In this document: positions 6,984-58,351 of the stretch, piece by piece
Layout: the number at the start of each line of letters is the position of its first letter
Position numbering within the stretch: position 1 is the stretch's first letter
Source of the DNA: Clostridia bacterium
GTDB lineage: Bacteria > Bacillota > Clostridia > Oscillospirales > Acutalibacteraceae
Direction: 5' to 3'
NCBI GenBank assembly: GCA_017451425.1
Contig: JAFSPP010000006.1
Location: 1 to 64,000, forward strand
Length of the DNA stretch: 64,000 bases
Position numbers and translations under genes: made by a program
Notes under the pieces: generated by a model
Seen by the model: only the letters and a program-made list of their open reading frames with translations
Told to the model about the DNA's origin: nothing
Databases searched by the model: none

Positions 6984-7014
6984 AAGGGCAATGCATTTTT
7001 GCATTGCCCTTTTT
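6984..7014 (+). terminator. Intrinsic terminator after the HtrA-type gene
   Basis: AAGGGCAATGC (6984-6994) pairs with GCATTGCCCTT (7001-7011), followed by TTTT. It closes the two-component/protease operon; the next promoter begins inside its descending arm. Confidence 0.85.
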
Positions 7015-20187: not shown

Positions 20188-21918
20188 GTGTCCCTTGACG
20201 GAATCTTTTTAAACTGTATAAGAGCAGAGCTTGAAAACGCGATAATCGATGCCAGAGTGGACAAGGTTTTCGAACCCTCAAAAGAGGAACTCATAATCAC
20301 ACTCCGGACACGCGGGCAGGGCACAAAGAAGCTGCTTCTCTGTGCCAGGGCAAATTCCCCGCGTGTTTCTTTTACTGAGCACGCCTATGAAAACCCCGCC
20401 TCGCCGCCCATGCTCTGCATGCTGCTGAGGAAGCGGCTCGGCGGCGCTGCCGTCATCGGCGTGCGCCAGGAGGGATGTGACCGTATTCTCTACCTTGACT
20501 TTCTCGCAACAAACGAGATGGGCGAGAAGGAGAAGCTGACCCTCGTCTGTGAGATAATGGCGCAGTACAGCAATGTCATCTTAATTGACGGCGAGCAGAA
20601 TATAATTGATGCCTTAAAGCGTGTCGACTATACAAAGTCCAGTAAGAGACTCATCCTGCCGAACGTGAAGTATGAACTTCCCCCAAAGCAGGACAAGTTT
20701 AATGTGTTTGAGGCGGATGAGAAGGACATAAAGGCACAGCTTCTCGCCCGCGGCGCTGACGACAAGGCCTATATGTCCACCATCATGGGCCTCTCACCGG
20801 TTGTCGCGAGGGAACTTGCACAGACCAATGCCGACAAGGCGATAGAGACACTCAGAAAATATGAAAACGGCAGTGACGGTTTCTGTCTCCTGAGAGACGG
20901 GGACGACAAGCCGTTTGATTTCTCATACATGCCGATTACCCAATACGGCAATGCCGCAAAGACGGAAGTGTACGACAGTGCGTCTGCACTCCTTGATGAC
21001 TACTACGAAATCCGTGAGTCAAGGGAGCGTCTCGCGCACCGCACCTATGATCTGCGCAAGGTCTTACAGAATGCGAAAGAGCGTATTGTCAGGAAACTCG
21101 ACATCCAGAAGACGGAGCTCGACGCCTGCGCTGACCGCGAGACGCTGCGCATCTCCGCGGAGCTCATCAACGCGAACCTCTACCGGCTCGGGAAGGGTGC
21201 TTCCCACTATGACCTCGAGAACTACTACGACAACAACAATATCATCCGCATAAAGGCCGACCCGGCCCTCTCGCCTGCCGAGAACTCCCAGAAGTATTTC
21301 AAGGACTACAAGAAGACCTATACAGCTGAGAAGAAACTGACCGAGCAGATAAAGCAGGGAATGGAGGACCTTGAGTACATTGATTCTGTCCTCGACACTC
21401 TCTCAAGGGCAGAGGGTGAAAAGGACATTGCCCAGATAAGGCAGGAACTCATAGACCAGGGCCTCGTCAAAAACAAGTTTGACGCAAAGGGAAAAATCTC
21501 AAAGAAGGCTCAGAATCAGAAGACGCCTCAGGGCCTGCCTCTGATAGAATATGAAACCACGGACGGTTTCAGGGTGCTCGTCGGCAGAAACAACCTGCAG
21601 AACGACAAACTCTCGATGAAGCAGGCAAACAAACTCGACATGTGGCTCCACACAAAAAACATACCCGGCTCCCACGTCATAATCGAGAACAAAAACGGAG
21701 AGGTCTCCGACAGGGCGATAGAGGAGGCAGCCGTAATAGCCGCTTTCCACAGCACCGCAGGCGATTCCGCCGCAAAGCAAATACCCGTTGACTACACATT
21801 GGTCAAGAACCTGAAGAAACCCGCAGGCGCCAAACCCGGCAAGGTGATCTTCCACGAAAACTGGACCATCTACGTCACTCCGGACGAGGACCTTGTCACC
21901 CGCCTGAAAAAGAAATAA
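20188..21918 (+). CDS. rqcH: Rqc2/RqcH ribosome quality control protein
   Basis: 576 aa NFACT protein. NFACT-N (1-200, with RANSPRVSFTEHAYENP), helix-hairpin-helix region, a coiled coil (about 290-420) and NFACT-R near the C-terminus with DMWLHTKNIPGSHVII. RqcH binds obstructed 50S subunits and adds Ala tails to stalled peptides. The start is GTG 20188 after AGAGGTG. It has no close downstream gene and ends in a strong terminator. Confidence 0.93.
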   Translation: MSLDGIFLNCIRAELENAIIDARVDKVFEPSKEELIITLRTRGQGTKKLLLCARANSPRVSFTEHAYENPASPPMLCMLLRKRLGGAAVIGVRQEGCDRILYLDFLATNEMGEKEKLTLVCEIMAQYSNVILIDGEQNIIDALKRVDYTKSSKRLILPNVKYELPPKQDKFNVFEADEKDIKAQLLARGADDKAYMSTIMGLSPVVARELAQTNADKAIETLRKYENGSDGFCLLRDGDDKPFDFSYMPITQYGNAAKTEVYDSASALLDDYYEIRESRERLAHRTYDLRKVLQNAKERIVRKLDIQKTELDACADRETLRISAELINANLYRLGKGASHYDLENYYDNNNIIRIKADPALSPAENSQKYFKDYKKTYTAEKKLTEQIKQGMEDLEYIDSVLDTLSRAEGEKDIAQIRQELIDQGLVKNKFDAKGKISKKAQNQKTPQGLPLIEYETTDGFRVLVGRNNLQNDKLSMKQANKLDMWLHTKNIPGSHVIIENKNGEVSDRAIEEAAVIAAFHSTAGDSAAKQIPVDYTLVKNLKKPAGAKPGKVIFHENWTIYVTPDEDLVTRLKKK

Positions 21919-21953
21919 AAAAAGACACCGAAGAAACTTCGGTGTCTTTTTTT
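21919..21953 (+). terminator. Intrinsic terminator of rqcH
   Basis: GACACCGAAG (21924-21933) pairs perfectly with CTTCGGTGTC (21937-21946), with A residues before and seven T residues after. The A and T tracts suggest use in both directions. Confidence 0.9.
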
Positions 21954-22134
21954 ATCCATTTAATATTTTTTACAGGAACAAAGAATAAGTCTTATTAACC
22001 GTTCATACACGTTTTTCAACCTTTCATACCTAAATCGAGATTTATGTCCTCCTTACGAGTATAATATTTGTGTAAATGTTGCACTAAATATAGTTGCAAA
22101 ATATATCAAACATGGTTATACTTGAGGAGGAAAT

Positions 22135-32010: not shown

Positions 32011-32045
32011 AAAACGGAGGCTCGGATGAGCCTCCGTTTTATTTT
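32011..32045. terminator. Bidirectional terminator between convergent genes
   Basis: AAAACGGAGGCTC (32011-32023) and GAGCCTCCGTTTT (32028-32040) form a perfect 13-bp stem around GGAT. A residues on one side and T residues on the other serve the BrnA-like gene and the minus-strand lipoprotein gene. Confidence 0.88.
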
Positions 32046-39512: not shown

Positions 39513-39548
39513 AAAAGAGCAGGTCGGATGACCTGCTCTTTTCTTTAT
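39513..39548 (+). terminator. Terminator of the rplU-rpmA operon
   Basis: AAAAGAGCAGGTC (39513-39525) and GACCTGCTCTTTT (39530-39542) are a perfect 13-bp stem, followed by a T-rich stretch. Confidence 0.88.
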
Positions 39549-44337: not shown

Positions 44338-45243
44338 ATGAAAAACAAAGAGCTGACCGGCGTGGTGTTCGTCATCATCGCCGGTATTCTCTGGGGCACG
44401 ACGGGAATCTATGTCAGATACTTCACTGACCTGGGCCTGTCATCACTCCAGATAACGGTATTTAAAATGTTCATAGCGGCCGTGGTGCTTCTTCTCTGGT
44501 GTCTCATCAGGAACAGGGAGGCACTCAAGGTGAAGAAATCAGACATATGGGTCTTTATGTGCACGGGCTTTATAAGTATGGATTTCTTCACGGTCTGCTA
44601 TTTCTCGACAATCCAGCAGGCTGACCTCTCAGTGGCAGCAACGCTCCTCTATGCCGCACCGGCCATAGTACTGCTGCTGTCAATAGTGCTGTTCAAGGAG
44701 AAGTTCTCCCTTCAGAAGGGTGTGGCCTGCGTCATAGCCTTCCTCGGCTGTTTCCTGGTGTCCGGCCTCGTGGGTTCGGGCATGGCAATACCCGGCAGAG
44801 CACTCCTGACCGGCGTGCTCTCGGCCATCGGCTATGCCCTCTACAGTATTTTCGGCCGCATAGCCCTCGACAAGGGATATAATTCGCTTACAATCACGAC
44901 ATATACATTTCTTTTCGCTTTTCTGGGCTCGCTCGTTTTGCTTCGTCCGGCAGAGGTCGCTGCCGCGGCTTCAGTGGCGAAACTTCCCGTATTTATATTC
45001 ATGCTTGTGGCGATAGCGATAAACGTATCACTTCTGCCGTACGTCTTTTATACGAACGGACTCGCCCGCATAAATGCCTCCAAGGCTTCGATAATAGCCT
45101 CAGTCGAACCGGTCACGGCGACGGTTGTGGGAGCTCTGGTATTTAAGGAATATCCGGATATTTACGGATATCTCGGTATAATATGCGTGCTATTTGCAAT
45201 AATTCTCCTAAATATTCGCATAAAAAATAGAAAAAGTGCATAA
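44338..45243 (+). CDS. EamA/DMT-family transporter
   Basis: 301 aa with about ten membrane helices in two EamA halves: GILWGTTGIYVRYF at the start and YALYSIFGRIALDKGY opening the second half, ending in EPVTATVVGALVFKE. The family exports or imports amino acids and metabolites; substrate unknown. It begins 3 nt after the exporter gene, so it belongs to the same transcript. Confidence 0.92.
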   Translation: MKNKELTGVVFVIIAGILWGTTGIYVRYFTDLGLSSLQITVFKMFIAAVVLLLWCLIRNREALKVKKSDIWVFMCTGFISMDFFTVCYFSTIQQADLSVAATLLYAAPAIVLLLSIVLFKEKFSLQKGVACVIAFLGCFLVSGLVGSGMAIPGRALLTGVLSAIGYALYSIFGRIALDKGYNSLTITTYTFLFAFLGSLVLLRPAEVAAAASVAKLPVFIFMLVAIAINVSLLPYVFYTNGLARINASKASIIASVEPVTATVVGALVFKEYPDIYGYLGIICVLFAIILLNIRIKNRKSA

Positions 45244-45258
45244 ATATTCAAAAAGTGC

Positions 45259-45293
45259 TTGCATAATTATAAAAGAGTGTGTATAATTATGCA
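45259..45293 (+). promoter_or_regulatory. Promoter with paired palindromic operators (ArgR-like)
   Basis: TTGCAT (45259-45264), 17-nt spacer and TATAAT (45282-45287). TGCATAATTATA (45260-45271) and TATAATTATGCA (45282-45293) are perfect inverted copies, each with an AATT centre, 20 bp apart, so on the same helix face. They cover both the -35 and -10. The half-sites resemble ARG boxes of ArgR/AhrC. Function as repressor sites for the downstream transporter is inferred. Confidence 0.7.
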
Positions 45294-45336
45294 CATCCAA
45301 ACGAAAACTTTTCAAATTAACCGGGAGGTAATTAAA

Positions 45337-46092
45337 ATGAAAAAATTACTCGCAGTTTTAATGGCACTTACACTCGTATTTGCGTTTGCCGCCTGCACAA
45401 AGCAGCCCGCAGACACAGATGATGCCCAGAAGACACTCATCATGGGTACAAACGCAGCATTCCCGCCCTATGAGTTCGTCGCTGATGACGGCTCATTTGC
45501 AGGAATCGACGTTGAGATTGCTCAGGCAGTAGCCGAGAAGCTCGGCATGAAGCTCGAGATCAAGGACATGGAGTTCAACTCACTTATCTCTGCTGTTCAG
45601 GGCGGCTCAATTGACATCGCGCTTGCAGGCATGACAGTAACCGATGAGCGTAAAGAGAGCGTAAACTTCTCTGACACATACGCAAAGGGCGTACAGGTTG
45701 TTATCGTAAAGGCTGACAGCGCCATTGCCACAGTTGATGATCTCGACGGCAAGACAGTAGGCGTTCAGGCCGGCACAACCGGTGACATCTACTGCACGGA
45801 AGATTACGGCCAGGACAACGTTAAGCAGTTCAACAACGGCGCTCTTGCAATCCAGGCCCTTCTCAATGACCAGGTTGACTGCGTTGTAATCGACAACGAG
45901 CCCGCAAAGGCATTTGTCGCCGCAAACGAAGGACTCAAGATCCTCGACACAAGTTATGCCGATGAGGACTATGCAGCTGCCATAGCCAAGGAGAACACAG
46001 AACTTCTTGACAGCTTCAACAAGGCTCTCGCTGAACTCAAGGCTGACGGCACAATTGACAAAATCGTTGAGAAATACATCAACGCCGACTAA
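45337..46092 (+). CDS. Polar amino acid ABC transporter, substrate-binding lipoprotein
   Basis: 251 aa. Signal ending FAAC lipidates Cys20. The SBP_bac_3 fold has NAAFPPYEFVADDGSFAGIDVEI, GMTVTDERKESVNFSDTY and KTVGVQAGTTGDIY. The start ATG has GGGAGG 8 nt upstream; an upstream ATG at 45259 would lie in the promoter. The ligand is probably Arg, Lys or another polar amino acid, in keeping with the operator type, but not shown. A hairpin follows. Confidence 0.93.
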   Translation: MKKLLAVLMALTLVFAFAACTKQPADTDDAQKTLIMGTNAAFPPYEFVADDGSFAGIDVEIAQAVAEKLGMKLEIKDMEFNSLISAVQGGSIDIALAGMTVTDERKESVNFSDTYAKGVQVVIVKADSAIATVDDLDGKTVGVQAGTTGDIYCTEDYGQDNVKQFNNGALAIQALLNDQVDCVVIDNEPAKAFVAANEGLKILDTSYADEDYAAAIAKENTELLDSFNKALAELKADGTIDKIVEKYINAD

Positions 46093-46169: not shown

Positions 46170-46949
46170 ATGACATTCATGAGCTTTTCTTCCTGGCTTG
46201 AGACCGCTCCCGCATGGGTGCAGGGTCTGCCGGGAGGTCTGCAAAATTTCATATTCCAGCTTTTCCAGACCTTTGTCTTTGCCGACCGCTGGAAGCTGTT
46301 TGCAAACGGACTTAAGATTACCTTTATCGTCACGTTAGGCGCGCTCGCGCTCGGTGTAATCATAGGTCTTGTTCTCGCGATTATCCGTACGCTTTACTGC
46401 AGCTATACTGTCAATAAGCCGCCGTTTATTCTGAGGGTCTTAAACGTGTTTACGGAGACTTATCTGACTGTAATCCGCGGTACTCCCATGATGGTTCAGC
46501 TTCTTATCATGGGCTTTGTAATCTTCGTTCCCAAAACGGAAATCGGATGTATTGTCTGCGGCATACTGACCCTCGGCATAAACTCGGGCGCGTATGTTGC
46601 CGAAATCATCCGTTCCGGCCTTATGTCGATAGACAGGGGACAGACGGAAGCGGGCAGAAGCCTCGGCTTCAACTACGCGCAGACGATGTTCTACATCATA
46701 ATTCCGCAGGCGGTCAAGAATATTCTTCCGGCGCTCGGCAACGAGATGATAACTCTGCTGAAAGATACATCGCTCGTCTCCGTAATCGCGCTGCGTGACG
46801 TGACGAAGCAGGCCCAGAACATACAGAGTCTGACTTACAACGCGCTCGTGCCCTACATCAGTCTTGCGGCAATCTATCTCGTGTTGGTGGTCGGCCTCAC
46901 GAAGCTTCTTGCCGTGTTTGAGAGGAGGCTGAGAAAGAGTGAACACTGA
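46170..46949 (+). CDS. Polar amino acid ABC transporter, permease
   Basis: 259 aa from ATG 46170. HisM/GlnP-type permease with about five helices and the coupling loop [33 protein letters not shown] (read in two parts around 160-192). It forms the membrane channel for the SBP at 45337 and the ATPase that overlaps its end by 11 nt. An upstream in-frame ATG would lie in the hairpin region. Confidence 0.92.
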
Positions 46950-47679
46950 TGATATCGTAATAAAAGTCGAAGGTCTGAAGAAGGCTTTTGGCGATGCAGA
47001 AGTCTTAAAAGGCATAGATCTCGACATTCACTCAGGCGAGGTTGTGGTTGTTATCGGAGCATCCGGCTCGGGCAAATCCACATTCCTGCGCTGCCTCAAC
47101 TGCCTCGAGGATCCGACGGGCGGATGCATTTATTTTGACGGTGTTGACCTCGCCGATGTCTCTGTTGACATAAATATCCACAGACAGAACATGGGCATGG
47201 TGTTCCAGCACTTCAATCTTTTCCCGCATATGACTGTTCTGCGCAATATGACCATTGCGCCGATAAAACTAAAGGGGCTGTCCGAAAAGGAGGCCTCCGA
47301 CAAGGCTTATGAGCTCCTGAAAAGGGTAGGCCTTGAGGACAGGGCAGATGCCTATCCGTCTCAGCTGTCCGGCGGACAGAAGCAGCGTATTGCCATAGTC
47401 AGGGCGCTCGCGATGGAGCCGAAAGTAATGCTCTTCGATGAGCCGACCTCGGCTCTCGACCCCGAGATGGTCGGCGAGGTTCTTGATGTTATGAAGGCCC
47501 TCGCAAATGACGGCATGACTATGGTTGTTGTCACACATGAGATGGGCTTTGCCCGTGAGGTGGGCGACCGTATCTTGTTTATGGACGACGGTGTAATCGG
47601 CGAACAGGGCACACCGGAGGAGGTCTTTGACAATCCTCAGTCCGAGAGGCTCAGGTCTTTCCTTGCGAAGGTTCTTTGA
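46939..47679 (+). CDS. Polar amino acid ABC transporter, ATP-binding protein
   Basis: 246 aa GlnQ-type ATPase: Walker [10 protein letters not shown], signature [15 protein letters not shown], Walker [13 protein letters not shown] and the switch His in [12 protein letters not shown] start inside the end of the permease gene. It powers import by the complex of the two preceding genes. Confidence 0.95.
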
Positions 47680-58318: not shown

Positions 58319-58351
58319 AAAAAGCAGGCTTGGAATCAAGCCTGCTTTTTT
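58319..58351. terminator. Bidirectional terminator, partly coding on the minus strand
   Basis: AAAAAGCAGGCTTG (58319-58332) and CAAGCCTGCTTTTT (58337-58350) with a GAAT loop. It ends the radical SAM gene and also the minus-strand operon, whose last stop codon lies at 58336-58338 in the loop and stem. Confidence 0.88.

Follow-up and report, generated by a model that had tools for sequence, protein, structure and literature searches.

A probable three-box ArgR operator at an amino-acid ABC uptake promoter of an uncultured gut Clostridia bacterium

The transporter operon and its promoter

The window, as the whole stretch of 64,000 nucleotides that was analysed is called here, is part of the genome (1.48 Mb in 66 contigs, about 95% complete) of an uncultured gut bacterium. 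An EamA-family transporter gene (positions 44338–45243, forward strand; PF00892) is followed on the same strand by the genes of an amino-acid ABC transporter. The first gene of this operon (45337–46092) encodes a substrate-binding lipoprotein of the SBP_bac_3 family (PF00497, E 2.3e-43), and its start at 45337 is favoured because of the ribosome binding site GGGAGG, seen in the sequence at 45323–45328. The second gene (46170–46949) codes for the permease subunit (PF00528, with TIGR01726 over its cut-off) and the third gene (46939–47679) for an ATPase subunit of the GlnQ/ArtP type (PF00005; the best NCBIfam model, GlnQ, is below its cut-off). None of the NCBIfam models listed for the binding protein is over its cut-off, those specific for arginine included. 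The protein's best NCBIfam model, TIGR01096 (lysine/arginine/ornithine), gives 174 bits (cut-off 256) and the ArtI/ArtJ models give 100–104 bits (cut-offs 510–522), and glutamine binders are among its best PDB matches.

Upstream of the binding-protein gene, two 12-bp arms, TGCATAATTATA (45260–45271) and TATAATTATGCA (45282–45293), are perfect inverted copies of each other, with 10 bp between them and with cores, ATAATTAT, that are 20 bp apart when measured from centre to centre, which is the geometry described in a first-pass annotation of this DNA. The repeat spans the -35 and -10 regions, as was also proposed there, the two hexamers being TTGCAT at 45259–45264 and, 17 bp further on, TATAAT at 45282–45287, both on the forward strand. 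The start of the feature had been placed at 45259, which is right for the -35 hexamer but one base early for the inverted repeat. The term consensus promoter, used for the same site, is only half right: the -10 hexamer is perfect (6/6), but the -35 hexamer matches TTGACA at three of six positions only. The promoter scan of the window uses a threshold of at least 4/6 in the -35 hexamer, and therefore this pair of hexamers is not listed by it. In the related loci L063 and L081 the aligned -35 hexamer is TTGACA.

In the 64-kb window, 17 inverted pairs of 12-mers with 0–40 bp between the arms are listed, at six places, the mean for 30 shuffles of the whole window being 0.1; in shuffles of the local 160-bp composition one such pair is obtained in 5 of 5000 cases. 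Further perfect inverted repeats of at least 12 bp with short loops, probably terminators, are present at 6984–7011, 21915–21955, 32011–32040, 39513–39542 and 58319–58350.

Three ArgR-like boxes and their conservation

The paired palindromes are best read as two of three ArgR-like boxes, and not as one palindrome. Each arm of the inverted repeat belongs to a 14-bp near-palindrome of the form TGNATAWWTATNCA, a pattern that was initially derived from the boxes of the window itself; the repeat is perfect because each box is itself near-palindromic. Box 1 (TGCATAAATATTCA, 45237–45250) is exact to the pattern and shares bases with the final codons of the EamA gene, box 2 (TGCATAATTATAAA, 45260–45273) has one mismatch and overlaps the -35 hexamer, and box 3 (TGTATAATTATGCA, 45280–45293) is again exact and contains the -10 hexamer. 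The centres of boxes 1 and 2 are separated by 23 bp and those of boxes 2 and 3 by 20 bp, being about two helical turns in each case. The likeness to ArgR/AhrC operators recognized in the first-pass annotation is retained, but for three boxes instead of two, as the exact box at 45237–45250 had been missed.

The set of related loci used for comparison consists of the best 80 of 568 found, from named assemblies of mostly uncultured Clostridia (with titles such as Ruminococcaceae, Oscillospiraceae and others). For each locus 200 bp upstream of the gene was scanned (88 bp for L064), the gene start being estimated from the match when this does not begin at residue 1. Among these best 80 loci the exact box is found upstream of 21 genes and a box with at most one mismatch upstream of 40, whereas both counts are 0 for the reversed pattern and average 0.06 and 1.0, respectively, in shuffles. 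The 40 loci of this set that lack a box within one mismatch are chiefly the more distant ones; such a box is present in 26 of the first (closer) 40 loci versus 14 of the last 40. Pairs of boxes spaced 20–23 bp occur 24 times in the same best 80 loci versus 2.8 times expected. A second set of 28 loci, partly shared with the first and obtained from 30 loci by dropping L032 (the window) and L048 (where the gene is truncated), has eight exact boxes and eight with one mismatch, the reversed pattern again giving 0 and 0.

It is conceivable that an AT-rich intergenic promoter just happens to look palindromic, given that the A+T content of the local stretch is 72.5% and that box 3 holds the TATAAT expected in any such promoter. 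However, when the local 160 bp is shuffled 5000 times, neither two exact boxes nor three boxes with at most one mismatch are ever obtained, and the boxes are conserved in the related loci, where the reversed pattern is absent, such that a chance origin is improbable to the point of being negligible.

The complete three-box layout is kept in L062 (spacings of 24 and 20 bp; protein 96% identical), in L063 (22 and 20 bp; 75%) and in L081 (22 and 20 bp; 70%). In all seven aligned promoters, including those of argG and argH of this same genome, the TTG of the -35 hexamer and TATAATTA of the -10 region are invariant, and the placement with respect to -35 and -10 is common to the transporter promoter and these argG and argH promoters.

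These alignments also bear on the reading of the repeat as one inverted unit, acting either as a cruciform or, in the RNA that reads through from the EamA gene, as a hairpin that would be an attenuator or a terminator. For the local RNA, folding gives a 12-bp hairpin of -12.4 kcal/mol (z -2.1 with respect to shuffles), and no other terminator-like site was found in the scan from the EamA gene to the operator and operon, as the single-unit reading would have it. Against this, the stem is nearly all A-U and is not followed by a run of T, and it is the boxes, not the perfect inverted repeat, that are kept in the aligned relatives: in L062 the repeat has one mismatch, and in L063 and L081 there is no such pairing, although the boxes are retained. 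The hairpin or terminator reading was rejected for this lack of conservation of the perfect repeat, and a single inverted unit is considered very improbable.

ArgR and the box sites of the genome

The genome codes for one canonical ArgR (E 1.7e-21), which is the protein that the proposed operator calls for. It scores 140.6 bits with TIGR01529 (cut-off 130.45), its closest PDB chains are the arginine repressors 1b4a and 1f9n, and the SRDIKE and GDDT stretches are conserved in the alignment. The arginine biosynthesis genes are also present: argG is followed by argC, argJ, argB, argD and argF, and these genes and argH were named by family search. A genome-wide search for the same box near arg genes, as suggested earlier, located boxes at argG (followed by CJBDF), at argH and at the operon that holds argR. 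The genome has four exact TGNATAWWTATNCA sites, two of which are at the transporter promoter, versus none for the reversed pattern. When one mismatch is allowed there are 21 distinct sites versus five, three of them being at the transporter and single ones at argG, at argH and at the argR operon; the remaining 15 are scattered, some being inside genes, and most of them are taken to be chance matches.

For a matrix, 50 training boxes were picked with the pattern TGNATAWWTATNCA from the transporter promoters of genomes other than this one; they were sought in 43 of the best 80 related loci, the nearest relative, L062, being left out. When this matrix is scanned over 246,922 bases (about 247 kb), being the window and the stretches around the 21 sites, the top five sites are, in this order, box 1 of the transporter, the argR operon, box 3 of the transporter, argH and argG, with box 2 being weak at rank 11. 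The one-mismatch site of argG (C48:61609) starts within the argG start codon, and therefore part of this match may be coding. Upstream of it the boxes of the argG promoter have two to three mismatches, but they cover and flank the -35 and -10 hexamers. One exact box, L017:10297–10310 (G000:C4:24296–24309), lies in coding sequence and was discounted as chance, being most likely a coding coincidence; the counterpart gene carries an exact site in two congeners too. A carB gene is found at L177:430–4671 (G000:C48), after a dihydroorotase-like gene. In this genome, about 95% complete, carA was not found, and carA is over cut-off in only three of the 11 genomes of the genus.

In the congeners, exact boxes are also present upstream of argG, argC and the argR operon. 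The 11 genomes of the genus have 49 exact sites versus six for the reversed pattern, and the 60 genomes formed by this one and 59 relatives have 151 versus 33. In five of these 60 genomes there is no ArgR match, only G015 and G026 of these five being more than 90% complete. In G015 the transporter box is absent, the best site having three mismatches, and G026 (99% complete) has four exact sites versus one for the control, none of them near relatives of the arg genes of this genome within the stretches covered. Of the less complete genomes without an ArgR match, G002 (81%) and G003 (55%) have transporter boxes. The two genomes of more than 90% completeness disagree as to a link between the absence of ArgR and that of the box.

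Several regulators bind near-palindromes that are rich in A+T, and the boxes could serve a regulator of amino-acid or nitrogen metabolism other than ArgR, as might also be suggested by the exact boxes of G026, which has no ArgR match. However, boxes of this same kind are present at argG, at argH and at the argR operon, and they resemble published ARG consensus sequences, such as AWTGCATRWWYATGCAWT described for Streptomyces (PMC5291005). Both points argue against another regulator, to which only a slight probability is given.

Proposed regulation and the leader of the argR operon

It is highly probable, judging from the sequence, that the three boxes form an operator of ArgR, an arginine repressor of the AhrC family, on the promoter of the amino-acid uptake operon. 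With arginine in good supply, ArgR hexamers to which it is bound would occupy the three boxes of about 14–18 bp, roughly on one face of the helix. RNA polymerase would be kept off, because both hexamers would then be covered, the -35 by box 2 and the -10 by box 3, and the binding protein–permease–ATPase operon would be off along with argG-C-J-B-D-F and argH. Once arginine is short, the repressor would be released, and uptake and synthesis would go up. Arginine dependence is a known property of the ArgR family, and since the boxes also overlap the promoter, we infer that ArgR binds here, with arginine as the co-repressor and with repression as the effect. As judged from its regulation only, the transporter would carry arginine or a related compound, for example ornithine or lysine.

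Such an arrangement is known from other bacteria, and the three-box feature is real but ordinary. In Clostridium acetobutylicum, ArgR sites are predicted at argGH, argCJ, argBD, argF/I and carA and also at the amino-acid ABC operon CAC3620–CAC3618 (PMC3828012); the present arrangement, with ArgR-type sites at arg genes and at an amino-acid ABC transporter operon, is therefore of a known kind. In the Escherichia coli artJ and artPIQM operons (PMC6640053), ArgR boxes likewise overlap the promoter in front of amino-acid ABC uptake genes, and the position of the present boxes over -35 and -10 points to repression, as at artJ and artP. There, two 18-bp boxes, 3 bp apart, lie over the -35 region, whereas here three boxes with centres 23 and 20 bp apart lie over both -35 and -10, and the operon here, unlike artJ/artPIQM, consists of genes for a binding protein, one permease and an ATPase. 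Three ARG boxes are also present at argC of Bacillus subtilis, and in a model described in PMC3293853 the AhrC hexamer touches all three; in that system one operator is made up of two boxes, with the third inside the gene, whereas here the three are contiguous on the promoter. A narrow literature search on ArgR, Ruminococcaceae and further terms taken together found no paper, and one on ArgR with three ARG boxes found a single paper, by which an absence in print is not implied.

The finding leaves the knowledge of ArgR itself unchanged. It ties a polar-amino-acid transporter that is otherwise unspecific to the arginine regulon in little-studied uncultured gut Clostridia, and it provides a usable ARG-box consensus for that group. 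The most useful addition concerns the argR operon, the leader of which has a conserved box. This operon, asp23-nusB-...-argR-recN, begins with asp23, for which there is no NCBIfam match at the threshold used; the gene names other than nusB and argR (asp23, recN) are presumed from the look of the sequences. The leader box (L018:6853–6866, G000:C48:84852–84865) is an exact ARG-type box between the -10 hexamer and the ribosome binding site of asp23, abutting the latter. Its conservation predicts autoregulation of ArgR, which is reported to be absent in C. acetobutylicum, with no site found at the argR operon there (PMC3828012). A wider generalization is tentative and rather doubtful: the genus-standard ArgR operator could be a contiguous three-box array in the -35/-10 region, where one hexamer uses all three of its pairs of DNA-binding domains, and ArgR could, in addition, limit its own synthesis, along with that of the housekeeping genes of the operon, via a single box between the -10 hexamer and the ribosome binding site. 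Among ten asp23 loci of the genus, this leader box is absent in two, has one mismatch in one and is exact in seven.
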